A stretch of DNA of 64,000 bases from Collinsella provencensis. GTDB taxonomy: Bacteria > Actinomycetota > Coriobacteriia > Coriobacteriales > Coriobacteriaceae. Made by a program: the position numbers and the translations under genes. Each line of letters starts with the position of its first letter. The first letter of the stretch is position 1. The stretch is taken from NCBI RefSeq assembly GCF_900199705.1, contig NZ_LT904908.1, positions 736,530 to 800,529 of the forward strand, read 5' to 3'. The notes below the pieces were generated by a model, which was not told where the DNA came from, searched no databases, and saw only the letters and a list, made by a program, of their open reading frames with translations. Positions 8,070 through 63,837 of this stretch are shown here, in pieces.

Positions 8070-8846
8070 TTAGAAACGCAGAGACAGGCAGGAGAGGCCA
8101 CCGTCGACCTTGCGGTACTCGGAGGTGTCGACAACAAGCGTCTTGTAGCCAAGATCCTGCACGGCCTTGAGCACGGCGGGGTAGCCCTCGGCCACGATGA
8201 CGGTGCCGTTGACCCAGATGCAGTTGGCGCCGTACGCCTCGTCCTCGGGCACGACGACCTTGTTGTACCGGGCGAAGTCGGGCTTGTCGATGAACTCGCC
8301 GGAGACGAGCATGTTGTTGTCCTCGATGTAGTTCACGCCCGTCTTGAGGTGCAGGACCTCCTCCAGCGGGACCTCGGAGCCCTCGAGGCCCCAGCCCTCG
8401 AGGATCTCGCAGAACTGGCGGATGCCCTCCTCGTTGGTGCGGGCGGAGCGGCCGACGTAGAAGTGGTCGCCGACCATCATGACGTCGCCTCCGTCGAGCG
8501 TGCCGGGGGAAACGATGTGCTTCACATGCCCGTCATCGAAGAAGCGACGGACGACCGGCTCGATCTCGTCCTTCTCGCCGTTGCGGGAGGCGGCTCCCGG
8601 GTTGGTGATGACGGCGCCGCAGCGGGTGATGACCGCCGGATCCTCCACAAAGCAGCTGTCGGGATACTGCTCGAGCGCCGGCAGCACGGTGACATCTACG
8701 CCGCACTGCTCGAGCGCGTGCTCGTAATCGTAGTGCTCCTCGACGGCGCGCTCGTAGATGGGCTGGCCGAGCTCGGGAGCGCTCGTGATGCCGTTACTCA
8801 GAGACTTGCCGGGACGGCGGATGATAACGTGGCTGAACTTGGTCAT
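8070..8846 (-). CDS. Dimethylarginine dimethylaminohydrolase / arginine deiminase family hydrolase
   Basis: 258 residues from the ATG at 8846, which follows AAAAGGGGGA. The guanidino-group-modifying fold is indicated by FVEDPAVI, LDGGDVMMVG, the histidine segment HLKTGVNYIED and the C-terminal GGLSCLSLRF that carries the nucleophilic cysteine. DDAH enzymes hydrolyse methylated arginine to citrulline plus amine; related enzymes act on arginine itself. Length favours DDAH over classical ArcA (about 400 residues). No arc genes are nearby, so substrate is open. An operator-like palindrome with an adjoining TATAAT-like hexamer lies about 60 bp upstream (see 8902-9106). Confidence 0.85.
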   Translation of the reverse strand: MTKFSHVIIRRPGKSLSNGITSAPELGQPIYERAVEEHYDYEHALEQCGVDVTVLPALEQYPDSCFVEDPAVITRCGAVITNPGAASRNGEKDEIEPVVRRFFDDGHVKHIVSPGTLDGGDVMMVGDHFYVGRSARTNEEGIRQFCEILEGWGLEGSEVPLEEVLHLKTGVNYIEDNNMLVSGEFIDKPDFARYNKVVVPEDEAYGANCIWVNGTVIVAEGYPAVLKAVQDLGYKTLVVDTSEYRKVDGGLSCLSLRF

Positions 8847-9210: not shown

Positions 9211-10668
9211 CTACGCGGCGAGACGCTTGAGAACGTCGACGAGCAGCGTGTAGAAGTGCTCGGCAGACTTGAGGTCCATGCGCTCATCGGGCGTGTGGAC
9301 GTCGTAGAGCTGCGGGCCCACGGCGATGGCATCAAGGCCGTCAAGAGCGGCCGCGAACAGTCCGCACTCAAGACCGGCGTGGATGGACTCAATCTTGAGC
9401 TCGGTACCGAAGAGACCGAGGTAGCTCTCCTTGAAGACGTCGCGGACGGCGGAGTGCTCAGCGTAGCTCCAGCCCGGATACTCGTACTCGAACTTGGCAT
9501 TGAAGCCAAGAGTGTCGGCGAGCGTCTGGATGCGGTCCTTAACATCGTCCTGAAGCGAGGTGATGGACGAACGCGGGGAAAGCAGGATCTTGATCTCGTC
9601 GTCAGTCGTGGCGACCACGCCGATGTTGGAGGAAACCTCAACGGCACCATCGGCGGCAACGTTGCGACGCATCACGCCATTGGGGGCGAGACGCAGGGCG
9701 CGAATCATGGCAAGGCCATCGGCCTCGGACATGGCGTCGACCTCGGCACCGTCTGCCACGGTGATGGCGCAAGTGAAACCGGGGTCGAAGACCTCGAGCT
9801 CAGCGGTAATCTGATCGACAACGTTCTTAGCGATCTCGGCACCCGCCTGTGCAGCTGCAGCGTCAGCATACGCGACGACAGCCGTGCACTCGCGGTTGAT
9901 GGCGTTGTCCTTGGTGCCGCCGTTGAAGCTCACCAGACGAGCATCACCCGCGGCCATGAGGCGCTCGATGATGCGAGCCATGAGCAGGTCGCCGTTGCCG
10001 CGCTCCAGGTGGATGTCAGCGCCGGAGTGACCGCCGAGCAAGCCGGAGATCTCGAGCGTAAGCGTGCTGCCCGCGATGTGCTCGCGCGTAACCGCACGCG
10101 TGATGGTGGCAACCACGCCGCCAGCACAGCTCACCGTGGCAACGCCCTCTTCCTCGGAGTCGAGGTTGATCATGATGCGAGCATCGATCTGGGACTTGTC
10201 GAGCGTCTCGGCACCAACCAGGCCGGTCTCCTCATCCGTGGTGAACACGCACTCGAGCGCAGGATGAACCAGCGTGTCATCGTCGAGAATCGCCATCATA
10301 AGTGCGACGGCGATACCGTTGTCGGCGCCCAGCGTGGTGCCGTTGGCGGTCAGCATGCCGTCGACGACCATCAGGTCGATGCCGTCCTTCTCGAAATCAT
10401 GCTCAACGCCGGCGAGCTTGTCGCACACCATGTCGATATGGCCCTGCAGCATGACAGCCGGAGCGCCCTCGGCGCCGGCAGATGCGGGCTTCTTGATGAT
10501 GACGTTGTTGACCTCGTCCTGGTACACCCAAAGACCGCGCTCATTGGCAAAAGCAACAAGGAAATCGCTGATCTGCTTCTCCTTGCCCGACTCGCGCGGG
10601 ATCGCACTGATGTCCTCGAAGAAGTGGAAGAGCTTCTCGGGCTGATAACCAGTGATCTTGTATTCCAT
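9211..10668 (-). CDS. pepD: Aminoacyl-histidine dipeptidase (peptidase D, M20 family)
   Basis: 485 residues from the ATG at 10668, preceded by AAGGAGGAACC. This is the M20C metallopeptidase that cleaves Xaa-His and other dipeptides in the cytoplasm with a di-zinc centre. Metal and catalytic residues are seen in LQGHIDMVCD, TTLGADNGIA, TTDEETGL, INLDSEEEG and the late SIHAGLECG. The lid/dimerisation domain lies between. It is monocistronic: its own terminator follows and the lysS terminator precedes it. Confidence 0.94.
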   Translation of the reverse strand: MEYKITGYQPEKLFHFFEDISAIPRESGKEKQISDFLVAFANERGLWVYQDEVNNVIIKKPASAGAEGAPAVMLQGHIDMVCDKLAGVEHDFEKDGIDLMVVDGMLTANGTTLGADNGIAVALMMAILDDDTLVHPALECVFTTDEETGLVGAETLDKSQIDARIMINLDSEEEGVATVSCAGGVVATITRAVTREHIAGSTLTLEISGLLGGHSGADIHLERGNGDLLMARIIERLMAAGDARLVSFNGGTKDNAINRECTAVVAYADAAAAQAGAEIAKNVVDQITAELEVFDPGFTCAITVADGAEVDAMSEADGLAMIRALRLAPNGVMRRNVAADGAVEVSSNIGVVATTDDEIKILLSPRSSITSLQDDVKDRIQTLADTLGFNAKFEYEYPGWSYAEHSAVRDVFKESYLGLFGTELKIESIHAGLECGLFAAALDGLDAIAVGPQLYDVHTPDERMDLKSAEHFYTLLVDVLKRLAA

Positions 10669-10860
10669 GGTTCCTCCTTGATGTATTCGAACCGAATACC
10701 TTACAGACAGCTCATATATTCCCAAAGTTGCTTGCGCCCAGCCAGACAAATACGCCAGTTGCGCCGTTCTGCCTGGGAACGGACTCTGAGTATGCAGAAC
10801 TTCTCAATTCCTATACAAATGAACGACGCTCATCGCGAGAGAAAAGTCCCGCTAGTCACA

Positions 10861-10894
10861 AAAAGGGCGCCACGCACAACGCGCGACGCCCTTC
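10861..10894 (-). terminator. Terminator after lysS
   Basis: Inverted repeat AAAAGGGCGCCACGC / GCGCGACGCCCTT with a short loop; on the minus strand the stem is followed by TTTTTG. It is 117 bp past the lysS stop. The interval 10669-11010 holds nothing else recognisable. Confidence 0.75.
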
Positions 10895-11010
10895 GATTGC
10901 AACTTAAGGCACAGAACCCGGATGCCTGTAGGCACGATCAATGCAATGCCGCAGGCAATGGAAAGCAAGCTCAACCGCCGGACACTTAAAAGAGCAATGC
11001 CCGAAAACCC

Positions 11011-13008
11011 TTAGTAGAGCTTGGCTCCCGCGGGGATGGAATCATCCACGATGAGCACGTTCAGACGCTCGGATGCGTCTTCGCCCCCCTGCTCGGCATG
11101 AACCGCGGAGATGATCATGCCACAGGACGGGATGCCCATCATCTTGCGCGGCGGCAGGTTGGTGATGGCGATAAGCGTCTTGCCAATCAGGTCCTCCGGC
11201 TCGTAGTAGTCGTGGATGCCGGAAAGGATGGTGCGGTCCTCGCCCGTACCGTCGTCAAGCGTGAAGTTGAGGAGCTTCTTGGACTTGGGAACGGCGACGC
11301 AATCCTTGACCTTGACGGCGCGGAAATCGCTCTTGGAGAACGTATCGAAGTCAACGAAGTCCTCGAACAGCGGCTCGACGACCACCTTGGAGTAGTCAAT
11401 CGTGGGCTTGGCGGGCTTCACGAACGGAGAAGCAGCGCCCTCGGACTCGGCGAGCTGGGCAGCGCGGGCCGCGGCAGCACCCGACTTGAATCCCTTCTCG
11501 GGCTTCATGTGCGGGAACAGCAGCACGTCGCGGATGGAGCTGGAGTTGGTGAGCAGCATGACCACGCGGTCGATGCCGATGCCGATGCCGCCCGCCGGAG
11601 GCATGCCGTACTCAAGTGCGCGCACGTAATCCTCGTCGTATTCCATGGCCTCGTCGTCGCCGCCGGCCTTCTCCTCCATCTGCGCGGCAAAGCGCTCAGC
11701 CTGGTCAACCGGATCGTTGAGCTCGGAGAACGCGTTGGCGTACTCGTGCGCGGCGATGAACAGCTCAAAGCGGTGCGTCAGGCGCGGGTCATCCTCGTGG
11801 CGCTTGGCCAGCGGAGACACCTCGACCGGATAGTCGACCACGAAGGTCGGGTTGATGAGCGTGGCCTCGCCCAGCTCGTCGAACAGCTCGGCGACGAGCT
11901 TGCCGGCGGTCCACTCGGGCTTGTACTCGATGTCGTGCTCGGCGCAGGCGGCGCGCAGCTCCTCGATGGGCGTGTCGAGCGTGATCTCGCGGCCCAAAAC
12001 GTCGGAGACGACCTCGGTCATGGAACGGCTGGCCCACGGCGAGAACAGGTCAATCTGCATACCCTGGTACTCGACCATGCCCTCAAGGCCGATGGCGCGC
12101 GCGGCGGCGGTGATCACGCCCTCGGCGAGCTCCTTCATGCCGTCGAGATCGGAGTAGGCGCGGTAGGCCTCCATGGTGGTGAACTCGGGGTTGTGCGTGA
12201 GGTCCATACCCTCGTTGCGGAAAATGCGGCCGATCTCGAACACGCGCTCATAGCCGCCCACAATCAGACGCTTGAGGTGCAGCTCGGTGGCGATGCGCAG
12301 GTAATTCTCCTGGTTAAGCGCGTTGAAGTGCGTGATGAACGGTTTTGCCGTGGCGCCGCCCTGGATGGTCTGCAGGATGGGCGTCTCGACCTCCATGTAG
12401 CCGTTGTCCTCCATGTAGCGGCGGAAGGTGGAGATGATGGTGGAGCGCTTGCGGAAGGTTTCGCGCACATCCTCATTCACGATGAGGTCGACGTAGCGCT
12501 GACGATAACGAGTCTCCTTGTCGGAGAGGCCGTGGAACTTCTCGGGAAGCGGACGCACCGCCTTGGAGAGCAGGCGCAGCTGGCGCGGGGCGACAGAGAT
12601 CTCGCCACGCTTGGTGCGCGTAACAACGCCGGTGGCCTGGACGATGTCGCCCAGATCGAGCTTCTTGAGCACCGCCCAAGATTCCTCCTCCACGTCGTTC
12701 ACGCGGCAGAACAGCTGGATGTCAGCAGAAGGATCGCGCAGGACGAGGAACATGATCTTGCCCTGGCCGCGCTTGGCGACCACACGACCGCCAATGGTCA
12801 CGGTTTCGTCGGCCGTCTGCTCGTTCTCGAGATAAGCATAGCGCTCGAGAAGGTCGGCGGCGTGATCGGTGACGTCGGAATGCTCAGGATAGGGATTCTC
12901 GCCCGCGGCATACAAGGCGGCGCGGTCGACCAGACGACGGGCGCGCTCGTCGTTGAGCGTGTTGGCAGACTCGGCAGTCTCAACGGTTGCAGAGGTGTTC
13001 TCGGCCAT
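11011..13008 (-). CDS. lysS: Lysyl-tRNA synthetase (class II) with C-terminal tRNA-binding domain
   Basis: 665 residues from the ATG at 13008 (AGAGGACA upstream), about 160 longer than ordinary bacterial LysRS. Parts in order: N-terminal OB fold that reads the anticodon (around TIGGRVVAKRGQGKIMFLVL), class II catalytic core with motif 2 RNEGMDLTHNPEFTTME and motif 3 GIGIGIDRVVMLL, a linker rich in alanine, then from about residue 555 a second OB fold of the EMAPII/Trbp111 type (FRAVKVKDCVAVPKSKKLL, LPPRKMMGIPSCGMI). The latter domain is normally found at the end of MetG. It presumably raises tRNA affinity. Confidence 0.94.
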   Translation of the reverse strand: MAENTSATVETAESANTLNDERARRLVDRAALYAAGENPYPEHSDVTDHAADLLERYAYLENEQTADETVTIGGRVVAKRGQGKIMFLVLRDPSADIQLFCRVNDVEEESWAVLKKLDLGDIVQATGVVTRTKRGEISVAPRQLRLLSKAVRPLPEKFHGLSDKETRYRQRYVDLIVNEDVRETFRKRSTIISTFRRYMEDNGYMEVETPILQTIQGGATAKPFITHFNALNQENYLRIATELHLKRLIVGGYERVFEIGRIFRNEGMDLTHNPEFTTMEAYRAYSDLDGMKELAEGVITAAARAIGLEGMVEYQGMQIDLFSPWASRSMTEVVSDVLGREITLDTPIEELRAACAEHDIEYKPEWTAGKLVAELFDELGEATLINPTFVVDYPVEVSPLAKRHEDDPRLTHRFELFIAAHEYANAFSELNDPVDQAERFAAQMEEKAGGDDEAMEYDEDYVRALEYGMPPAGGIGIGIDRVVMLLTNSSSIRDVLLFPHMKPEKGFKSGAAAARAAQLAESEGAASPFVKPAKPTIDYSKVVVEPLFEDFVDFDTFSKSDFRAVKVKDCVAVPKSKKLLNFTLDDGTGEDRTILSGIHDYYEPEDLIGKTLIAITNLPPRKMMGIPSCGMIISAVHAEQGGEDASERLNVLIVDDSIPAGAKLY

Positions 13009-28477: not shown

Positions 28478-29575
28478 CTAACGTATCGCGCGGAGACGCT
28501 CTTTCATTTCAGATGAGATGCGACGGCTTTCAATCGCCTTTTGAATCGCTTTGCGGCGGGTCCATTCGTCCAATAGCGCGTCGTCTCCCTTGCGCTCCAA
28601 ATACGGAAGCGTTGCAGCTTCCTGCTTGGCCAGCGCCTCGGCAAAGTACCAGGCACGCATCATGTCCACGTAGTAGATGTCGTCATCCGTGGCGGGCACG
28701 TCCCGCGTACCGAGCGCACCACCCCCCGTGTAAGCGCTTGCCGCAGCACTCGCGCCATCCCGCCCGTCCGCTGGCATACGTGCGGCCGCAACCACATCAA
28801 GGAAGCACGACTCAAATCGCCCGTCCAAAAACAGACGCATGAGCACGCCGATACCGAAGCGGATGGTGTAGCAATGCCCCGAAGCAAGCCACGCATCCAC
28901 CTGCTGCAACGTACAATCGGGGTCCTTTGCCAACACCTTTACCGACAGCTGGTCGCACGTGGCCCAATTGTCTACGTAAGGCAGAAAACGGTTGTAAAGC
29001 TTGAGAGCCTTGTCGTAGTCGCGCTCAAGCGCAATGACAAACGCGTGGACCTGATTCTCCTCAAACAGGCGATGCGGCAAGGCGCGCAAAAACGTTTGTG
29101 CGTCATCGCGACGAGCAAGATCCTTCGCGATAGCGCGCAAGGCTGGTGTGCGAACGCCGACCATCCGCTTGGGATCGACCGTGGGCGCAAGCTTTGCCAT
29201 AAAGTCGCGGTACGCCGGATCAACCTGATCCGCAAGGCGACGGTCAACAAACTCGCAAGCAGAATCCTCGCCGAACCCTGGAAGCTCACGGCAGAGCACG
29301 TCTTCAAACAGCTCCGCGGCGGCCATCGCCAAAAGCGCATCTTTGCGAGCGCGCGGCAACTTTTTGAATAACGCCTCCGCACTCATGGCTCGCTGCTTGG
29401 AATAGAAGCGAGCCTGCACAATCAGACTCACGGGTGCATGCGACTTGGTGTACTTGGCGCCACGCCCCGACTGATGCGTCGCAAGGCGCGCGGAAACATC
29501 GGTGGTGTAGCCCGTGTACAGGCTGCCATCTGCGCATTTCAGCACGTACAGATAGTGTTCAAAAGGCGAAGCCAT
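28478..29575 (-). CDS. GIY-YIG nuclease fused to AlkD-like DNA alkylation repair domain
   Basis: 365 residues in one frame. Residues 1-80 form a GIY-YIG nuclease of the UPF0213/YhbQ type ([17 protein letters not shown], then [17 protein letters not shown]). From about residue 85 to the end the sequence matches the DNA alkylation repair HEAT-repeat family: [45 protein letters not shown] and [15 protein letters not shown]. AlkD proteins remove N3/N7-alkylated bases without base flipping. A nuclease/glycosylase fusion would cut near the lesion. A low-complexity alanine/glycine loop lies near residue 290. Confidence 0.8.
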
Positions 29576-30613: not shown

Positions 30614-32077
30614 TTGAGCTCGTATCAGTTTCATTGCACATGGGTCGATCTTGAGAAAAAACTTGAAGGCAGCCTTGAAAAAACGCTGGGCGAAGTTGAT
30701 TCCAAGAACGTCTTTGCCCGCACGCTTGAAAACCCCAAGGTGACTGGAATCGCCGGCGATGTTATCGAGCAATCAGTAATTGGATACCCCGCAAACTCGA
30801 GCCAAGAACCCGATTTGGTAATCGACAACATTGAAACTGAGCTCAAGACAACCGGCCTACGAAAGTCCAAAAAAGGAAAGGGCTTTGAGGCAAAAGAGCC
30901 CATGTCCATCACTGCCGTCTCCTTAGACTCGATAGCTGGCGAAGAATTTGCAACCTCGAATTTCTGGCACAAGGCACAACGGCTGCTTATCGTCTATTAC
31001 CTGTACGACTCGGAAAAAACCGTTCCCGCTGCAGGTTATGCCAACTTCCCCATCAAGGGCTATCAGCTCCATCAGTTCAGTGATGCGGAAATCGAAACTC
31101 TGAAATCCGACTGGACCCTGGTCAGAAACTTCATCAGAAAGATTCAAGAAGACTATCCCGACGAAAACGAACGCAAACAACACTATCCAAAACTATCGAG
31201 CGCCTTGCGAAAGAACTTGCTTCTCATTGATACCGCTCCGAAATACCCTCATCCACCTCGCTTTAGGCTCAAGCGCTCGGCCGTCACAACGATGGTAAAG
31301 AAAAACTTTGGTGATAATCTCACGCAACTTCCCAAGAGCTACACGAGCTACACCTCAATTGATTTTGAGCTGCATCAGATTGCTAAGAAATACCAAGGCA
31401 AAACGCTTGGCGAAATTGCTGACGAAATGGGCATTCCTTACGACCCGTGCAAGCAAAACAAGAATCTTGCTGAGCAATTTGTCACGAGGGCATTTGGCGC
31501 TGGCGGAAAGATGAGCTCTATTGAACTTTTCGCGTCAATTGGACTCAAACCAAAAACAATCACGCTTACAAAATCAGGTGCTCGCACAGAAGACATGAAG
31601 CTATTCACTATCGACTTCGAGGAGTTCGTCGATGACGCCCTATTCGACGAATCGCTCTTTTTCGAATACTTCAACAACAACCAGCTTTTGTGCATGGTAT
31701 TCAATGAACCAAGCCATGGTGCTCCACTGACTGAAAATACCTTCCTTGGGTTTAAACGAATGGCATTTGATGATGAGTTCATCGACGCTCAAGTGTCACG
31801 CGTCTGGCACGCAATCAAGAGACTCATCGTGAATAACGAGCTCGTTGATGTTGTCTCGTATGACAAGGCTGGAAAACCAATTATTAACGGGACCGGCGTA
31901 ATTAGAAGCGCGCCGAACTTTCCTAAATCTAGTGAAGGCGTTGTCTTCGTACGCGGAACAAGCAGCAATAGCACTCACAAGCCGGAATGCGTTAACGGCA
32001 TCTCGATGTACAAACAGCAAATCTGGATTAAGGGCTCATACGCCGCTAAACGCATGGAAGAAGAGGATTGGATTTAG
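30614..32077 (+). CDS. Sau3AI-like type II restriction endonuclease
   Basis: 487 residues, almost the length of Sau3AI. The start is TTG at 30614, seven bases after AGGGGG; no ATG fits. The N-terminal MutH-like catalytic domain shows the D...ExK signature in DLVIDNIETELKTTG. A second, MutH-related allosteric domain follows in Sau3AI, which fits the C-terminal half here (from about residue 250). Sau3AI cuts before GATC. The cytosine methyltransferase gene directly downstream completes the system. Recognition of GATC is inferred from family and was not tested. Confidence 0.88.
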   Translation: MSSYQFHCTWVDLEKKLEGSLEKTLGEVDSKNVFARTLENPKVTGIAGDVIEQSVIGYPANSSQEPDLVIDNIETELKTTGLRKSKKGKGFEAKEPMSITAVSLDSIAGEEFATSNFWHKAQRLLIVYYLYDSEKTVPAAGYANFPIKGYQLHQFSDAEIETLKSDWTLVRNFIRKIQEDYPDENERKQHYPKLSSALRKNLLLIDTAPKYPHPPRFRLKRSAVTTMVKKNFGDNLTQLPKSYTSYTSIDFELHQIAKKYQGKTLGEIADEMGIPYDPCKQNKNLAEQFVTRAFGAGGKMSSIELFASIGLKPKTITLTKSGARTEDMKLFTIDFEEFVDDALFDESLFFEYFNNNQLLCMVFNEPSHGAPLTENTFLGFKRMAFDDEFIDAQVSRVWHAIKRLIVNNELVDVVSYDKAGKPIINGTGVIRSAPNFPKSSEGVVFVRGTSSNSTHKPECVNGISMYKQQIWIKGSYAAKRMEEEDWI

Positions 32078-32177
32078 CAGTTTATTCATTGGCGGAAAAT
32101 CGCATAAAAGGTATTGATCATTTATTGTCCTCATGAGAAAATACACTCTTGGTTCAATGAATGCGAAGGAGCACCCC

Positions 32178-33461
32178 TTGACCAAGAAGATAAGAGTTGC
32201 TGAGCTATTTGCGGGAGTAGGCGGTTTTCGTTTGGGTCTCGATGGGTTCCATGACCCTGACCATCCTGAATTCGACATGCCCTCCGCGGGCCCGTTCGAA
32301 ACCATCTGGGCAAACCAATGGGAGCCCGACGGACGTGATAGCAAGCAGTTTGCATGGCGCTGCTACGAAGCTCATTTTGGTGCAGGTAGCTGCGTAAACG
32401 AAGACATCAATAAGGTTCTTGACGAATACGAGGCAGGAACGCGCGAGATTCCTGACTTCGAAATGCTCGTGGGCGGTTTCCCTTGTCAGGACTATTCCGT
32501 AGCCAAGCCGCTCTCAATGGCAGGTGGCATTGAAGGCAAGAAAGGTGTTCTTTGGTGGGACATCTATCGCATGATTAACTTCAAAAAGCCAAAATACATC
32601 CTGCTAGAGAACGTCGATCGACTTTTGAAAAGCCCTTCGAAGCAACGCGGGCGCGACTTCGCCATCATCCTCTCCTGTCTCTCCGAACAGGGGTACTCCG
32701 TAGAGTGGCGCGTCATCAATGCCGCTGAATACGGAATGCCGCAAAAACGGCGCCGCGTTTATATCTATGGAGAGCTCACGGATAAAACCTGGGATCTTAA
32801 AGCCAGGGTAAAAGAAGAAGGCGTCATGAGTGATGCCTTCCCTATCACTAGCTCAATTGAGCGTATTGCCACTGTTGACGTTTCTGATGACCCGTACGAT
32901 GTCACCCAAAATTTCGCTGCCGACAGCCCAAAAACGAGCGTATGGCAAAACGCCGGTGCAATGCAAAACGGAATTGCCTTCACATGTAAGGTCAATCCCG
33001 CATACAGCGGACACGTAAAAACGCTTGAAGAGATTAGGGTTCCTGACGCAGAGGTTCCTGCGGAGTTCTTCATCAGCGATGCTGATATTCCAAAATGGGA
33101 AGAGCAGCGGGCGGCAAAGAAAATTGAACGCACTACGGCGGAAGGTTTCACGTACCTTTACAGCGAAGGCTCCATGCCTTGGCCCGATCCCATCGACAGT
33201 CCAGCGCGTACCATCCTCACAGGTGAAGGTGGCAAAGGCGCAAGCCGCATGAAGCATGCAATCCGTTCAGAAAGTGGAAGGATTCGAAGGCTGGTGCCCG
33301 ATGAGCTGGACCAAATCCAAATGTTCCCCAAAGGTTGGACCGCGTCCGAAGGTGACAAAACCATGAGCGATGGACATAGGGCGTTTTGCATGGGTAATGC
33401 ACTGGTAGTTGGCATTCCGCATGCCATCGGAAAGACAATCGCGAAGTTTGCGGAGAAATAG
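32178..33461 (+). CDS. DNA (cytosine-5) methyltransferase, M.Sau3AI-like
   Basis: 427 residues from the TTG at 32178, chosen because AAGGAG is 6 bases before it; upstream ATGs at 32133 and 32157 lack sites. Motif I is AELFAGVGGFRLGLD, motif IV GGFPCQDYS with the catalytic Cys, motif VI LLENVDRLL, motif VIII PQKRRRVYIYG and motif X GNALVVGIP. It protects host DNA against the adjacent nuclease. Both genes using TTG starts could hold expression low. Confidence 0.9.
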   Translation: MTKKIRVAELFAGVGGFRLGLDGFHDPDHPEFDMPSAGPFETIWANQWEPDGRDSKQFAWRCYEAHFGAGSCVNEDINKVLDEYEAGTREIPDFEMLVGGFPCQDYSVAKPLSMAGGIEGKKGVLWWDIYRMINFKKPKYILLENVDRLLKSPSKQRGRDFAIILSCLSEQGYSVEWRVINAAEYGMPQKRRRVYIYGELTDKTWDLKARVKEEGVMSDAFPITSSIERIATVDVSDDPYDVTQNFAADSPKTSVWQNAGAMQNGIAFTCKVNPAYSGHVKTLEEIRVPDAEVPAEFFISDADIPKWEEQRAAKKIERTTAEGFTYLYSEGSMPWPDPIDSPARTILTGEGGKGASRMKHAIRSESGRIRRLVPDELDQIQMFPKGWTASEGDKTMSDGHRAFCMGNALVVGIPHAIGKTIAKFAEK

Positions 33462-37336: not shown

Positions 37337-39124
37337 GTGGCAAGTTCAATAGAAGTAAACAAAAAGAAAGTCTGCGACTTCCTCGCCGAGGGCAAAGAGC
37401 ATAAGTTCGTTGTTCCCGAATACCAAAGGCCCTATGAGTGGACCGAAGAGCAGGTGGACACGCTCTTCGACGACCTATGGGAGTTCTCGGCCAGCAATAA
37501 GGATGAGAACGAGGACTACTTCTTAGGATGCATTGTTTTCTACGAGAATAACGGAGAATATGAAATCATCGACGGCCAACAAAGGCTCACGTCGCTGTTC
37601 TTATTCCTCAGGGCGATTTACGGCTCTCTCGAAAAGGGTGAGGAGACTCCCGAGTCGAAAAACTTCATGTCAAAAATCGAGAAATCAATATGGCCTGAAG
37701 ACGAAATGACTGGAAAGGTAATCAAAAGCCAAACGCTTCTTGAGTCCAGAGTCGTCGACTCCCAGTACGGCGATGTTCTGGCGGATATCCTCACCAGCGG
37801 ACAGGCTCCAGAGGAACATGAAGACCACTATTCCGTGAACTTCAGAAGATTTCAAGAGCGGTTCCAGCAGGCTTCTGCCAAGAACAGCCTCTCGATTTAC
37901 AGGTTCCTACTTGACGTCACAAAACACGTAATCATCTTTCCAATCCAGGCCGACACTCAGGAAACGGCGCTGAGAATTTTCTCCACTCTGAACGATCGCG
38001 GTCTTCCACTGTCCGATGCCGATATCTTCAAAGCGAAGATCTACGGCTTCCTGGAATCTGAGAAGCAGAAAGAAGGGTTCATCGAACAGTGGAAAGCACT
38101 TGACGAAAGAGCCAATGAATCGGAAGAGAGCATCCAGAAACTATTCCAATATTACATGTTCTACCTCAGGGCCAAAGATGGCGATACACAAACGACCACT
38201 CCGGGCGTGAGGCGATATTACGCTGAGAACAAATTCAGTAAGCTCAAAAACCCTAAAATAATGGAAGACCTCGATGCACTCATGGATGTGTGGGAGGTCG
38301 TAAACGCCCGCATGGAGTCAAACGATCTCCCTTGGACGAGTAATCCAGAAATTCGCAAGCAGCTCGACCTGCTGAACATGTACCCGAACGAGTTTTGGAA
38401 GTATCCAGTCGGCGTTTTCTATCTCACGCATAGGGACAAAGAGGATTTCGAGGGAAAGTTCCTACGCTTCCTGAGAAAATTCGCTTCAGAGATGATTGCG
38501 AAGTTCCTGAAGACTCCCACCGTCAGCACGGTCAAACCGGGCGTTATGAAGCTCAACACCGCAATATTGGAAAGCGATACACCCGGCTTCGAGTTTGGCG
38601 ACGTCAATTGGCAAAGTCTGAGAGAGCAGGTTAAACTGCCCAACAAGCGCTCTTTTAGAATGCTTTTGGCCTTGTATGCTTACACCCAGCAGGATGATCT
38701 GCTTCCAGCGAAATGGGAAATCGAGCACATATTCCCGAAAAAATGGCAATCAAGCCATTTTCCCGAATACAGTGATTCTGTCGTCAACGAAAGAATCGAG
38801 CATCTAGGAAATAAGGTCCCATTCGAGAAGAAGCTCAACATCGTTGCAAGCAACGGATACTTCGAAAGGAAGCAGAAGGAATACGCAAAGTCTTCGATAG
38901 CCGCCACGAAAGCGCTGGCCAAAAAGAGCCCCGCCACTTGGGAACTCTCTGATATCGATGAGAGAGGCGTACGTGTAACCGACGTTATTATCGAAACGCT
39001 AAGGCAATGGGGCGCTGACTACGCGTCTGAGCAAGAAAACGTAACGCTTCAAATTTCGGAAGAAGACGCGGAGCTCGTCAAAGCGCTTAAAGAGAAGTAC
39101 GGGGATTCGATACTCGGGTTATAA
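37337..39124 (+). CDS. GmrSD-type DUF262/HNH nuclease
   Basis: 595 residues starting at GTG 37337; the ribosome-binding site is poor, so the exact start is uncertain. N-terminal DUF262 with VVPEYQRPYEWTEEQ and the nucleotide-binding IIDGQQRLTSLFLF; C-terminal DUF1524 with the HNH motif WEIEHIFPKKW and the following asparagine-containing ERIEHLGNKVPFEKKLN. GmrS and GmrD halves are fused in one chain, as in GmrSD/BrxU proteins that cut glucosylated or otherwise modified phage DNA. Confidence 0.85.
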   Translation: MASSIEVNKKKVCDFLAEGKEHKFVVPEYQRPYEWTEEQVDTLFDDLWEFSASNKDENEDYFLGCIVFYENNGEYEIIDGQQRLTSLFLFLRAIYGSLEKGEETPESKNFMSKIEKSIWPEDEMTGKVIKSQTLLESRVVDSQYGDVLADILTSGQAPEEHEDHYSVNFRRFQERFQQASAKNSLSIYRFLLDVTKHVIIFPIQADTQETALRIFSTLNDRGLPLSDADIFKAKIYGFLESEKQKEGFIEQWKALDERANESEESIQKLFQYYMFYLRAKDGDTQTTTPGVRRYYAENKFSKLKNPKIMEDLDALMDVWEVVNARMESNDLPWTSNPEIRKQLDLLNMYPNEFWKYPVGVFYLTHRDKEDFEGKFLRFLRKFASEMIAKFLKTPTVSTVKPGVMKLNTAILESDTPGFEFGDVNWQSLREQVKLPNKRSFRMLLALYAYTQQDDLLPAKWEIEHIFPKKWQSSHFPEYSDSVVNERIEHLGNKVPFEKKLNIVASNGYFERKQKEYAKSSIAATKALAKKSPATWELSDIDERGVRVTDVIIETLRQWGADYASEQENVTLQISEEDAELVKALKEKYGDSILGL

Positions 39125-39306
39125 ATCCGCATCGATAATCAACTGAAGCGACTCTTGGATTGTGTTTGATGAGCCGATGAGTTTGTCGCGGTGGCTATCC
39201 CGTGTCAAATCATGGCCGCCTCGCAAAGCAGGCGGTTTCCTCGCGTCGCATCACGAGTCCCGCAGGGTTGATGGCCCTTGAAATCAAAGCAGATTTGTAA
39301 ATCGGC

Positions 39307-41097
39307 TCATGAAGGTCTAGCCTTCTTCATCCTCAATCTTCGGCAGTTTGGACAAGACCCACCTGTTAGAAGAGTTTCAGCCTTCGGCGACCACTCGTAA
39401 CCGCATGTTTTGCACAGCACAAGAATAACGGTGCTGGAGCTCTTGTACTCTCCGAGTATCTCAATATCAGGGTGCTTTTCCGAAACTTCTCTGACGAACT
39501 GATCCTGAGTGCGTCTTAGGACGCCGGCACACTTTGGACACCCATGCCCGCGAAGCAGACTACTGGCAAACGGGCTCCATTCGTGCCCACACACCATGCA
39601 CCTTACATTGACTCTTTTCGAATTGCCTTTATACCCGCCAACGTACTCTATGCTGGGATTTGATTCTTCCAGACGATCTTTGAACTCCGTCTCCGTCAGC
39701 TTTAGAGCACCTGCACACCGGGGACATCCCGAACCCCTGACTAAGGACTGCGCGATGGGTTTCCATTCGTGACCACATACTCGACACCGCACTAAAATCC
39801 GGTTCTTCTTATACGTATACCTGCCAACAACCTCGATATCAGGGTTTATCCCATGCAGTTCCTCGACGAATTCGTCATGGATCATCCTCTGTGATTTCGA
39901 GCTGGCAGAACTGAAAATTGCAGCGGTCTCCTGTGGACTGAAACAGCAGGTGATACCGTACTCCGACATTATGTCCGCCACGATACGCTCAAGGTCGCGC
40001 TCGTTGGAGCCGGCACTGACGACACCGTTAATCGTCAGACAATCCCGATCAAACGGGGGCTCCGCGCCATCTGGATAATCATCATAGATTGTGATTAATC
40101 GTATTCCAGCTTGGGCACAAAGGGATCTCTTATCAGCATCGCTATGCAGCTTGTCCTTGTGCCAGAACCACGACCCCGGCTCAAAAGCAAGAGACAAACT
40201 AGGAATGTAAATGTCCAGCTCTTTTCCTATTGCGCTCCTATCACGCGACAGAACCTTATCTTTCCCGAGAACCAACCTAAGAGATTCGAGAAAAAACTGC
40301 TCCATGTACGATGTGCCACTCCTAGCGCATACAGGACAGCCGGCACCTCGTAGCAAGTTGTTAGGAATCCCCATCCAATCATTCCCGCATTTTTTGCAAT
40401 GTACTTTTACGGGTTTTGACGCAGTCGTGTAGGTTCCCTTCACAGCGATATTGGAATTTACCGCGCAAAGCTTACTCTCGAACTCACTTTTCGACATTCT
40501 CTGACGGGCAGAGGACTCTGTTTTCTTACACTCTGGACACCCATAACCCGCCGTTAAGCTGTAGGCACTTGGAGCCCACACATGACCGCACTTCAGGCAC
40601 CTGACACGAATGCGGCTGCGTGCATTGGTGTAGTCTCCCAAGACTTCAACCGAGGGATTCACATCTGCAAGTCGGGACACAAACTCTTCCTGTGTAAGGG
40701 CAACGCGACCACTACATTTTGGACATCCGTAGCCGCTTATAAGACTCTGCGCGATGGGAGGCCACTCGTAGCCACACGTTCGGCATTTTGCTCTGATGCG
40801 CTTCTCGGATCCCTCGTATATCCCAACCACCTCGACGGTTGAATTCGTCGCAGCAACCTGCGCAACAAACTCCTCGTGGGTTTTCCTGTGCGCTGCCTCG
40901 CATGCACGGTGTCCGCATTTGGGGCATCCGTGTCCGCGATAGATATTCTCGGGTATTGGATCCCACTCATGCCCACATTTCCTGCATTTCACATGGACTT
41001 TCGTTCTTGAGTTTACATACGTTCCCAACACCTCGATATTAGGGTTGATTGCGTCGACATCAGCGACAAATTCATCTTGCGTCTTACGCCTTGACAT
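39307..41097 (-). CDS. Seven-zinc-ribbon protein with central Vsr-like nuclease domain
   Basis: 596 residues from the ATG at 41097 (GGAAG upstream). Seven repeats of about 60 residues, each with two CxxC pairs in the form CxxCGHEW...GCPxC: four before and three after a central domain at about 260-400. The centre reads YMEQFFLESLRL, GKELDIYIPSLSLAFEPGSW, then IRLITIYDDYPDG, resembling Vsr/homing-type PD-(D/E)xK nucleases that are often tethered to such ribbons. The usual EYDG is FEPG here. The ribbons probably bind DNA. No partner gene is evident, and the role is unknown. Confidence 0.7.
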   Translation of the reverse strand: MSRRKTQDEFVADVDAINPNIEVLGTYVNSRTKVHVKCRKCGHEWDPIPENIYRGHGCPKCGHRACEAAHRKTHEEFVAQVAATNSTVEVVGIYEGSEKRIRAKCRTCGYEWPPIAQSLISGYGCPKCSGRVALTQEEFVSRLADVNPSVEVLGDYTNARSRIRVRCLKCGHVWAPSAYSLTAGYGCPECKKTESSARQRMSKSEFESKLCAVNSNIAVKGTYTTASKPVKVHCKKCGNDWMGIPNNLLRGAGCPVCARSGTSYMEQFFLESLRLVLGKDKVLSRDRSAIGKELDIYIPSLSLAFEPGSWFWHKDKLHSDADKRSLCAQAGIRLITIYDDYPDGAEPPFDRDCLTINGVVSAGSNERDLERIVADIMSEYGITCCFSPQETAAIFSSASSKSQRMIHDEFVEELHGINPDIEVVGRYTYKKNRILVRCRVCGHEWKPIAQSLVRGSGCPRCAGALKLTETEFKDRLEESNPSIEYVGGYKGNSKRVNVRCMVCGHEWSPFASSLLRGHGCPKCAGVLRRTQDQFVREVSEKHPDIEILGEYKSSSTVILVLCKTCGYEWSPKAETLLTGGSCPNCRRLRMKKARPS

Positions 41098-41279
41098 CTT
41101 CCGTCTTCCCATCTTTTGCCGACATGCAAGAGTATATGCAACTCACTCGATCATCGCGTGTAGCTTGCTCGTGACAAAGGCCCATGGAAAAAACTGCCAG
41201 CACACAAATGGCCAATTTCGTGGATAGGCAACCCCTCCCCTTAAAACGAGCGAGAACCCCACCATCCCTCTTCTGCGAT

Positions 41280-42200
41280 TTACTGTCTATATTCGAGCGG
41301 AATATCGTTTTCGTCCGTATACATTGCATTAAGCGACTCCGGACTGATAGCACCTCTGAACATTTCCACTTTATCGAATATCCTATCCGTCATTTCACCC
41401 GCCTCGCGATTTGGGAGCACGATTGCAAGCGCGTTGAGTAGATGGTCGAAACCATGCCCCTTCACCCGCGTGCAATACAAGCGCTCATCATGCGCGCATA
41501 TGTTTCTAAACCCAACGAGAATGGTTATCACATTGAGTAGTTCCCTCGCGCCGATTCGCCTCCCATTTTCGTTGACTTCAGAAATGATTCGGCACGTTTG
41601 ATTCTGGACGCCGCGCTTCTGCAATTGGTAAAAATGCGAGATGTTACCGAACATCAAATCATTCTGCAGCACCCATAACGGTATGCCACCATGCTTTTCT
41701 ATGTAATGAATCTCATATTGTTTAGACCGATTGCTCAGCTTGTTCTTTTTGCGAAGTATTTCAATCAGCTTATTAAGGTTCTTATCGTGTTCGACCTTTT
41801 TATTTCCCTTGAACCCCGACGGAACAAGCATATCTTTCGAGCTGACATAATTTTCTTCGCAAAGGTAATCGAGCATTCCGCGGTGATTGTCACAAAACGC
41901 ATACACGACTGCACTCTTTACGATTGTTTCTGCCGACATAATGTACGGCATTATGGATTGTCTAAGCTCCCTGTCGAATAGATACAGAACAAATATATCG
42001 TTGAACGACGTCCCCGGTTTGTAAACGTCCCCTTCCGACTTCTTCATAGCCTGATGGTCGAGAAACGAATCCTTGTAGCCGTTCACGACGGCATAGTAAC
42101 TCTCCCGTTTGAGGATTGCCGACGTGTTTTCATCGGTCTTCACTCCTCTCGACTCGAGAATATGAACGAGCTCTTCTATAGTTTTGAAGTCTTTTGCCAT
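41280..42200 (-). CDS. Abortive infection protein, AbiD/AbiF (Abi_2) family
   Basis: 306 residues from the ATG at 42200 (AAGG 8 bases upstream). The Abi_2 N-terminus (VHILESRGVKTDENTSAIL, YYAVVNGYKDSFLD) and the HEPN-type RxxxxH motif in GFRNICAHDERLY are clear. Members are phage-activated RNases that arrest growth. It is a single gene, as in other AbiF systems, which in some hosts depend on an adjacent ncRNA; none was identified here. Confidence 0.85.
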   Translation of the reverse strand: MAKDFKTIEELVHILESRGVKTDENTSAILKRESYYAVVNGYKDSFLDHQAMKKSEGDVYKPGTSFNDIFVLYLFDRELRQSIMPYIMSAETIVKSAVVYAFCDNHRGMLDYLCEENYVSSKDMLVPSGFKGNKKVEHDKNLNKLIEILRKKNKLSNRSKQYEIHYIEKHGGIPLWVLQNDLMFGNISHFYQLQKRGVQNQTCRIISEVNENGRRIGARELLNVITILVGFRNICAHDERLYCTRVKGHGFDHLLNALAIVLPNREAGEMTDRIFDKVEMFRGAISPESLNAMYTDENDIPLEYRQ

Positions 42201-42218
42201 TTCAGCCACCTTAAATCA

Positions 42219-42254
42219 AAAGGGCCGCTGCCGATTACCCGACAACGACCCTTT
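42219..42254 (-). terminator. Terminator after the DUF4236 gene
   Basis: Imperfect stem AAAGGGTCGTTGTCG/CGGCAGCGGCCCTTT on the minus strand, followed by TGATTT, directly upstream of the Abi gene. Confidence 0.65.
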
Positions 42255-42373
42255 CTTTGTCCCCGATTCGACGTAGATTAGGGGGGACTGCATCACTGCT
42301 GTAACTATACCCCATAGACACGGCAGGACAACGAACTTTCACATTAACCCAGCAACCTCAGCCGCACCCATGG

Positions 42374-43597
42374 TTATTCGGAAATACTAAACGGTTCGAT
42401 TGCTTTGAAAATCTTGGTCTTTGTCACATTACAACGGTTTTCGCTTGCCAGGCAAAGCTCTTCTGCGCTGTCGTTGCTCCGCACCGCCTCACATACTGTC
42501 TCCCTCGCAAACACAACGGAAAGAAGGTAATCATCGGAATAATTTCCAAACTTGTTTTCACGGAGAGCGTGAGCGGAACAGGCCACCTCTTCCATCGAAG
42601 GGCTGACATCAAACGTGCGAGCAGCGATGTACGCAACAAGATTGAATACGTACTGGGCATATTCCTCGCGCATAGACTTCTGAGTTTTTTCCTTTTCTTT
42701 AACCGTCCCATCTTTACGTACCAGTCGCTCCGTAGTTGGAAAAACAAAAGCCGGTGGTAGCGCTATATCAATGGAAACCATTCCGCTTTCGCAAGTAGAA
42801 GTACATTTAAGATTCTGCGAAAACGGCACGTCCAACCCCCTCAGCATCGCCTGAATCTCTGGATAGACATACTCTAGATCGCCATCGATTCGAGACCGCA
42901 GACGCTGTTTTTGCTCCTCGCACTCCTTGATAAATTGCTCGTTTGCAGAGCGCTCTCGCTCGCTCTCCGCTTCAAAAAACTCGTTGCGCTCCTGTTCCCA
43001 AGCGCTATACAACTCCTCGTAACGCTCCTCCGCATGCGCTTTTACATACTCGTCCTTGAGACGGTAGACTTTCCAAAATGCACGTTCCTTTACCGCATCA
43101 TCCGCCTCGCGAGACAAGCACTCCTCTAGCGTCTCCAAACTAGGCGCCGATTTTAAAAAATCGCTCGGAACATACCGCTCTGGCTGAAGCGCATCGATCT
43201 CACGTTTGAGCGAATCAACCGTCGACAGCCCCGCAACGGAAAGCCAGAGTCCTTCCATGGCGGAAGAAGGATGCAGTTGACCCTCCCTCTCCTCGCGACT
43301 CGTCGACAAGGGTTTGGAATCAGGTTTGCGGGATATCGTTTCCACACCTTTCGTACGCGAGCTATTTTGAGGCGTTCTACCAGTCGATTTTGAGCGGCTC
43401 TTTTTCGCTGAACCCGAACCGATCTTGTCTCGCCGATATAGCCCCGTGCCGGGAATGGAAACGTTCCGATACACACCACGCTTGCCGATATTAAACGACA
43501 GGCCCTTCTTGCCCACCGTTGTACTGACCCCCGATTTCGACAGATTCAATCGAACGCCAGGAGCCACTTTGATTGATTTCCTCAGCCGCCATCCCAT
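42374..43597 (-). CDS. DUF4236 domain-containing protein
   Basis: 407 residues from the ATG at 43597. The N-terminal 60 residues match DUF4236: MGWRLRKSIKVAPGVRLNLS, then KSGVSTTVGKKGLSFNIGKR. Next is a basic serine-rich linker, then a charged helical, probably coiled-coil region (EERYEELYSAWEQERNEFFE), then a globular C-terminal part. No enzyme motif visible. The domain is of unknown function and frequent in mobile or phage-related contexts. Confidence 0.75.
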   Translation of the reverse strand: MGWRLRKSIKVAPGVRLNLSKSGVSTTVGKKGLSFNIGKRGVYRNVSIPGTGLYRRDKIGSGSAKKSRSKSTGRTPQNSSRTKGVETISRKPDSKPLSTSREEREGQLHPSSAMEGLWLSVAGLSTVDSLKREIDALQPERYVPSDFLKSAPSLETLEECLSREADDAVKERAFWKVYRLKDEYVKAHAEERYEELYSAWEQERNEFFEAESERERSANEQFIKECEEQKQRLRSRIDGDLEYVYPEIQAMLRGLDVPFSQNLKCTSTCESGMVSIDIALPPAFVFPTTERLVRKDGTVKEKEKTQKSMREEYAQYVFNLVAYIAARTFDVSPSMEEVACSAHALRENKFGNYSDDYLLSVVFARETVCEAVRSNDSAEELCLASENRCNVTKTKIFKAIEPFSISE

Positions 43598-47058: not shown

Positions 47059-47619
47059 GTGGCGGAGATAGAAGGTGCTGAATCGCCAATGCGCACCGTA
47101 AATGCTGCCCATTTCCAGTCGACACGCCTGCTCGGCCTTCAGACTCGCAACAGCGCTGCCTACAAAGGGGTCATGGCGCTCGTATTTCGCGAGAACTGCC
47201 TCGACTTCGTTGACGGCGCAACAATGACCATGGTGAAGTCGATGGAAACCCCACCGGACATCCACCACATTTTCCCGCGCGCGTACTGCGAGAGGAAGGG
47301 GCTCGACCGGACGAAGTGGAACTCCATCGTGAACAAAACCCCACTCATCGCGCGCACGAACCGAGAAATCGGAGGCATCGCGCCCTCGAAGTACCTACCA
47401 AAGATAATGAAGGATGAGCAGGTCGACGGAGCAGAGCTTCGCAAGCGCGCGGAATCTCACCTCATCGACTACGATGCGCTTGCCAGTGATGATTTCGATA
47501 CGTTCTTCCTTGATCGCGCGAGAAGGCTCCTCGATGCCATCGAGGAGGCAATGGGCAAGGAGGTGCCCGATCGGGCGTCTGACGAGACGGCAGCAGCGTT
47601 CGGGAGTAAGCTGTGCTGA
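47059..47619 (+). pseudogene. C-terminal fragment of a DUF262/HNH nuclease
   Basis: 186 residues from a GTG with no ribosome-binding site. The HNH motif PPDIHHIFPRAYCERKG and the following SIVNKTPLIARTNREIGG match the end of DUF262/DUF1524 proteins, but the DGQQR half is missing. It is not the same subtype as the intact gene at 37337 (WEIEHIFPKKW). Truncated, hence pseudogene, though a small HNH protein cannot be excluded. Confidence 0.65.
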
Positions 47620-63444: not shown

Positions 63445-63837
63445 TTCCCGGTTTCGAAACTTGGAAGGCAGTATGCGCAAGGATGCGTCGAGGTGCGATC
63501 CCAGTCGTACCATGCCAGCAGAGATGTCGAGGCACATTCGTTCATGCTGCAATGCGGGCATCGGAGATGAAAAACAGCCCGTCGGGTAGTCATGGGCGTG
63601 CGGGAGCCCGCATCAGTAACCTGCCTCCTCGGTTGTCCCTTCTTTGCATGGTCGTCTACATAAAGGAGGAACCAGCCATGCAGATCAGCATGCTTGCCCT
63701 TCTTGGGTCACGGACCGGGGAGGCGAGGGCCTCCGTCGGGACCGCCCCGAGCAACCGGCATATCCAAGGAATGACAAGGCTCGATCGCTGTGCTGGTCAG
63801 GATGCCGAAGCGGGCCGTCCGCCAATCGGAATGCGGG
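63445..63837. other. About 390 bp without a recognisable gene
   Basis: An ATG at 63678 with AAAGGAGG upstream looks like a gene start (MQISMLALLG), but the reading frame soon loses any family resemblance. Probably debris. Confidence 0.4.

Follow-up and report, generated by a model that had tools for sequence, protein, structure and literature searches.

The locus analysed here raises the question of what a protein with zinc ribbons on both sides of a nuclease-like core does in a bacterial defence island. Its gene lies in a stretch of 64,000 nucleotides of the Collinsella provencensis chromosome (the window), between genes for a GmrSD-type protein (37337–39124, plus strand; GmrSD_N, PF03235, 2.9e-39, and GmrSD_C, PF07510, 2.1e-12) and an Abi_2/AbiD protein (41280–42209, minus strand; PF07751, 6.6e-34; PADLOC AbiD, 5.5e-41). 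This position had been noted in an initial reading of the letters alone (the sequence-only reading), and both neighbours are confirmed here. Further genes near it encode a Fic protein, an EcsC protein (PADLOC PDC-S29) and a MutH-domain protein beside a C5-cytosine methylase (30614–33461, the methylase at 32133–33461), which likely form a restriction-modification pair. Elsewhere in the window we observed a single protein matching both GIY-YIG (2.8e-12) and DNA_alkylation (8.1e-15) at 28478–29575, a 186-residue protein at 47059–47619 that shares 45% identity with the C-terminal part of a GmrSD_N protein adjacent to one of the relatives discussed below (L072), and an Azaaromatic (yjdF) riboswitch at 63557–63656 (48.4 bits, gathering score 45).

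The whole open reading frame occupies 39307–41112 on the minus strand and combines a ribbon array, an EDxHD/Vsr-like core and a second ribbon array. The frame is real, on a strand that the sequence-only reading did not name, and its length is 601 residues from the first ATG; the 596 residues given previously (39307–41097) correspond to an internal ATG at 41097, and either ATG may be the start in use. Fourteen CxxC knuckles form seven CxxC-16-CxxC ribbons, four before the core and three after it, exactly as had been read. Those on the N-terminal side span residues 43–66, 110–133, 172–195 and 239–262 (40915–40986, 40714–40785, 40528–40599 and 40327–40398, minus strand), with CxxC pairs starting at 43/63, 110/130, 172/192 and 239/259. 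Those on the C-terminal side span residues 443–466, 505–528 and 567–590 (39715–39786, 39529–39600 and 39343–39414, minus strand), with pairs starting at 443/463, 505/525 and 567/587. When the protein was shuffled 20,000 times, this pattern occurred 0.005 times on average and at most twice. Three Pfam families matched above their cut-offs, namely DUF4379 (E=3.8e-39, seven stretches), CapR (E=1.5e-32, six stretches) and DUF723 (E=8.6e-13, three stretches). HypA and DUF7836 likewise exceeded their cut-offs, presumably via the CxxC knuckles. The full-length model (pLDDT 80.8, pTM 0.40) predicts the modules, but at this pTM not how they sit relative to each other. Its search against BFVD gave 240 matches at E <= 0.001; the rmsd was high and TM-scores were at most 0.4 among the matches listed, and the likeness is therefore one of modules only. 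Giant-virus proteins (Klosneuvirus, Barrevirus, a Marseillevirus) were among the best of these matches, some of them named zinc-ribbon or treble-clef proteins. Searched for an intron, the stretch 38800–42400 gave no Rfam match up to E=5, and no repeats flank the gene; just a 17-nt repeat and one short palindrome were found, both inside the coding region. Predicted terminators were rarer than in shuffles, and promoters about as frequent.

The central domain (residues 265–412; 39877–40320, minus strand) had been called Vsr-like, with a profile search suggested as a check. That assignment is supported by a profile match, an AlphaFold2 model and fold comparison. The profile built from 13 related cores (A3) gave as its best PDB match the catalytic domain of the homing endonuclease I-Bth0305I (3r3p, E=3.2e-4; runner-up E=0.15), in an alignment that spans model positions 43–94 and hence includes neither E271 nor D300; the residue opposite H318 in the deposited chain is Ala. 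The model of the core, built on the same profile, has a pLDDT of 91.7. With VIA-align, in which we treated rows less than 1 Z apart as tied, it resembled 3r3p (Z 8.8, rmsd 2.8, 95 residues aligned) and the Vsr endonuclease 1cw0 (Z 8.5, rmsd 2.9, 101 aligned). Foldseek found nothing in the PDB at E <= 0.001, and its top rows were apparently unrelated. Among phage families, PHROG 3339 ('homing endonuclease') and PHROG 559 ('HNH endonuclease') matched the window core at 1.7e-10 and 4.2e-6, and both of these as well as PHROG 9902 matched all 13 cores at E<=0.1. The window core had no significant Pfam match (best DUF1155, E=0.13); related cores matched MTES_1575 (4/13), DUF2726 (3/13) and DUF559 (1/13). 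Both its Vsr-like catalytic fold, related to that of I-Bth0305I, and its catalytic residues are as in the EDxHD family: all 13 cores have E271, D300 and H318, at least 90% have D325, and these four we take to be the E, D, H and D of the family name.

Beyond these residues, T267, S268, E298, E311 and L339 are invariant in the 13 cores, and K328, like D325, is kept in at least 90% of the rows. The motif FEPG is present in the window core as F310-E311-P-G, at the start of the stretch EPGSWFWH (residues 311–318; 40159–40182, minus strand), which holds the conserved Glu and His and the signature of a clade. E311 aligns with the conserved Glu of EYDG/EYNG-type cores, from which EPGSW differs directly after this Glu. 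EPGSW also occurs in relatives from Ruminococcaceae, Saccharibacteria and Spirochaetaceae. The motif reads EPGSWFWHKDK in L020, L021 and L022, EIGSWHWHKN in L023, EYGSWFWHKN in L072, EPGSWVWHGN in L073, EPGTWAFHKN in L078 and FEPGSWFWHKA in L074. In a tree of 17 cores, from which the broken L074 was omitted, the eight EPG-type rows fell on one side of a single branch (96/93) that extends across several phyla, with partly weak inner branches. The window core paired with L020 from Ruminococcaceae (89/86) and not with L023 or L072, which come from its own order, a pattern as expected from horizontal transfer. Two of the nine EPG-type genes, L023 and L074, are spread over several reading frames; the L074 copy (9686–11507), which adjoins a Fic protein gene, is apparently a decayed gene. 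Homing genes pass through a cycle of invasion, decay and loss, and the two split copies fit such a cycle.

The ribbons vary in number and arrangement among these relatives. Where the window protein has four ribbons ahead of its core and three behind it, L020 has five and three, L022 two and five (the last lacking one cysteine), and L073 one and three plus one incomplete ribbon. L023 carries two ribbons in a first frame and two, the core and three in a second, overlapping frame, and the 1108-residue L072 has eight CapR and five DUF4379 stretches, some of which may represent the same ribbons twice. L021 ends in a NUMOD1 domain (34.3 bits, cut-off 22.8), and the C-terminal end of L023 has a NUMOD-like stretch resembling that of I-HmuI, below threshold (21.8 against 27). 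Six positions (Y, W and four C) are invariant over 35 ribbons, and several between the knuckles are highly variable. For six proteins, with L021, L072 and incomplete ribbons left out, identity was 38.0% between ribbons at equal positions (67 pairs), 37.2% at unequal positions (434 pairs) and 38.9% within one protein (94 pairs); equal and unequal positions in different proteins did not differ clearly (permutation p=0.10). This pattern hints at re-assortment of ribbons, but saturation would fit equally well. In phage mEp021 (L113, 2495–3982) the domain that follows the same ribbons is T5orf172/MUG113, another nuclease-like domain, as expected for a transferable DNA-binding module. Two genomes from the genus of the window, G012 and G018, encode ribbon-only proteins of 210 residues that have no nuclease core (L025, 7666–8298, and L026, 8047–8679).

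The distribution is patchy. Matches to the full protein, mostly partial, were obtained in 4 of 58 relatives and, across the phylum, in 11 of 396 genomes, and at full length it is confined to its own genome among 35 genomes of the genus; across the class, the core profile matched 9 of 296 genomes (own genome included in all four counts). In the phylum of the related genome G672, the core profile matched 6 of 398 genomes, G672 included. Among phage records, 962 matched the full protein and 39 the core; many of the latter are annotated as homing endonucleases, with 31–46% identity among the matches listed. One plasmid matched the core, and one viral-contig locus matched the full protein (27%); in viral contigs, none of 41 pattern matches was confirmed as an EPG-type copy by alignment scan. 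A relative in Bacillus phage AR9, also annotated as a homing endonuclease, lies inside a split RNA polymerase beta' gene.

Mobility is indicated most strongly by empty sites, and these concern two relatives, not the window copy. The flanks of L073 (genome G583) are about 1.8 kb apart, and the gene between them is the endonuclease; in the same-genus genome G505 the same flanks (77–79% identity) are about 180 bp apart. The ends of this insertion are not definable to the base. It adjoins an aldolase-type gene, named by eye, on one side and an antiporter gene on the other. In the L023 locus (genome G308) the flanks end at 8752 and resume at 12468, leaving about 3.7 kb for the split ribbon endonuclease gene and a second gene, which encodes a YhcG/DUF1016 PDDEXK protein. 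One edge lies at the prfB stop codon (the product has PCRF and RF-1 domains), and the other just upstream of a transketolase gene. This site is empty in all eight same-genus loci that were fetched, with the flanks either directly joined or separated by no more than 231 bp and 94–96% identical in the closest locus. A 9-bp repeat, CTATTGGTT, occurs near both ends, at 8758 and 12468. For the window copy, no empty site could be defined in 43 genomes of the genus (own included) that were searched with its 6.8-kb surroundings. Nine other genomes matched these surroundings, and all matches listed were short and inside the Abi gene. In the stretches around the Abi homologues of G003, G019, G023, G002 and G013, 14 other window proteins that were compared had no match (E<=1e-5). 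GmrSD homologues are present in 15 of the 43 genomes (own included), the best outside the own genome being 35% identical.

Could the enzyme have lost its activity, or act on something other than DNA? The sequence-only reading had supposed that FEPG, standing where active relatives have EYDG, may alter activity. A decayed or binding-only core would accord with the difference right after the Glu and with the split L023 and L074 genes, which show that copies do decay. Against this, all 13 cores retain the Glu, the His and the remaining active-site residues, a single clade (96/93) spanning several phyla unites the EPG-type rows, and the window frame is unbroken. We reject FEPG as a mark of decay, since the motif is clade-wide and the Glu retained; EPGSW is instead the signature of a clade, and we regard altered or lost activity as extremely unlikely. 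It is also very unlikely that the protein acts on RNA, with ribbons that bind RNA and a Vsr/RAP-like core that binds or trims it. Such an enzyme would account for the proximity to 3r3p, in the VIA-align comparison with the core model, of two Toxoplasma mitoribosomal chains (Z 9.1 and 9.0) and the RAP module of FASTKD4 (Z 7.4), and for a weak match (E=0.095) to mt-SAF33, a mitoribosome-associated protein named after DUF4379. However, sequence comparison ranks a homing endonuclease that acts on DNA first in the PDB, the acidic residues and the His of the catalytic site are conserved, and relatives carry NUMOD1 or occupy chromosomal sites that are empty elsewhere.

The genomic setting suggests yet another function, that of a domesticated anti-phage nuclease whose ribbons read a conserved phage sequence and whose core cuts incoming phage DNA, and which selection, not homing, keeps in the defence island. 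The flanking GmrSD and AbiD proteins favour it, as do PADLOC matches among the scanned neighbours of L023, L072 and L074. L023 has a PDC-S02 neighbour; L072 has an AriA/PtuA-like ATPase at a distance of about 5.6 kb and, two genes to its 3' side, a GmrSD_N protein; L074 has PDC-S72, a Fic protein and PDC-S27. The HNH homing endonuclease of one phage is, moreover, known to inhibit a competing phage (PMC11620839). Defence-like neighbours were found at four of the nine clade loci, the window included, as a raw count of scanned neighbours only; the PADLOC scans covered the window and neighbours of L020, L022, L023, L072 and L074. Yet the window protein itself had a single weak PADLOC match (Cas12f, E=0.0058), too weak to class it as a defence protein, the one neighbour each of L020 and L022 that was scanned had no match, and L073 sits between housekeeping genes. 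A MobA-type relaxase and a NikA-like protein are encoded near L020, and a recombinase beside L021; NUMOD1 and the intron-borne kin also point toward homing. In the Saccharibacteria assembly that contains L021 (3397–8008), an EYDG-type ribbon nuclease is followed by the EPGSW-type protein with NUMOD1 and then by a serine recombinase. The defence island around the window gene is real, and some of its relatives stand in other settings. Kinship with homing endonucleases explains this set of observations better than a defence role, which we consider improbable.

From our analyses, we conclude that the window gene is probably a free-standing homing endonuclease of the EDxHD/Vsr kind whose ribbons bind DNA. 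We base this on the top PDB profile match of the core to I-Bth0305I and its PHROG homing and HNH matches, on the invariance of E271, E298, D300, E311 and H318, on the AR9 relative in the split beta' gene and the NUMOD1 of L021, and on the empty sites of L073 and L023, the split copies and the published domain combination. The treble-clef zinc ribbons, four and three in number, would bind DNA as tandem modules and hold the protein on a long target that extends to either side of the cleavage site; the earlier suggestion that such an array reads a long stretch is plausible. The central core would cleave using E271, D300, E311, H318 and D325, and the break in a gene-less allele would be repaired from the gene-bearing allele, whereby the gene is copied, sometimes together with a neighbouring gene. 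For the window copy, zinc binding, DNA binding, cleavage, homing and activity itself are predicted properties. Several points count against this conclusion: the window copy has neither an empty site in the genomes searched nor an intron recognisable with Rfam, the 3r3p chain has Ala at the position of H318 in an alignment that falls short of E271 and D300, the mitoribosomal chains score as high as 3r3p, and Foldseek alone gave no PDB match at E <= 0.001. The second gene and the 9-bp repeat of L023 also go beyond what simple homing needs.

A broader reading, which we put forward as speculative and rather doubtful, is that EPG-type endonucleases are the mobility engines of bacterial defence cassettes, in which the flanking ribbons make up an array that reads the target and can be re-assorted, the core cleaves the chromosomal site where it is empty, and through repair the endonuclease is copied along with defence cargo. 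In L023, that cargo would be the YhcG nuclease found at the stop codon of prfB; in the window, it might be the gene for GmrSD or for AbiD. Should endonucleases move along with such cargo, homing would be one route by which defence islands grow. Were the ribbons to obey a readable code, the array would be the zinc-based equivalent of TALE repeats. The two occupied/empty pairs provide short DNA stretches that would hold the cut, and what the ribbons read thus becomes directly testable.

The combination of ribbons with an EDxHD/Vsr-like domain has already been published, in 2025, for phage introns (PMC12350094). In the part of that work available to us, four phage group II introns encode EDxHD/Vsr-like nucleases that carry three to five CapR/DUF4379/DUF723-like domains on their N-terminal side, DNA binding by the CapR-like domain is proposed, and such ribbon nucleases are considered a large unrecognised outgroup with thousands of UniProt hits; ribbon-EDxHD endonucleases are numerous and mostly unannotated. 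The window protein, with tandem CapR, DUF4379 and DUF723 matches and an EDxHD/Vsr-like nuclease, has the features of this outgroup. The intron enzymes and the window protein share the ribbon families and the kind of nuclease domain. The former, however, have three to five repeats and a C-terminal nuclease and are intron-borne, whereas the latter has a central nuclease between four and three ribbons, is encoded by a free-standing gene on a bacterial chromosome and carries the EPGSW signature. We count its arrangement as a variant, because the published set consists of four intron copies. That part of the work contains no description of the EPG clade, a central core or bacterial empty sites. In the literature searched, mainly open literature, we recognised no paper on this clade, which does not imply its absence from print, and found no target for it.

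Among individual systems, AR9_g146 of phage AR9 is like the window protein in its CapR/DUF4379 repeats and EDxHD-like core, but has three repeats before the core, a C-terminal part without ribbons and the motif EFNG. Vsr, which repairs T:G mismatches and is associated with a C5 methylase, shares the core fold and has no ribbon arrays; the window, too, contains a C5 methylase, at 32133–33461. Homing genes of phages have been described near essential genes (PMC10448857, as far as available to us). I-Bth0305I, a long, dimeric, multi-domain enzyme with a target of nearly 60 bp (PMC3943268, likewise), resembles the window core in fold and in part of its sequence, with EVNG at the place of EPGS; since 3r3p is its catalytic domain only, the comparison covers the catalytic part of the enzyme.
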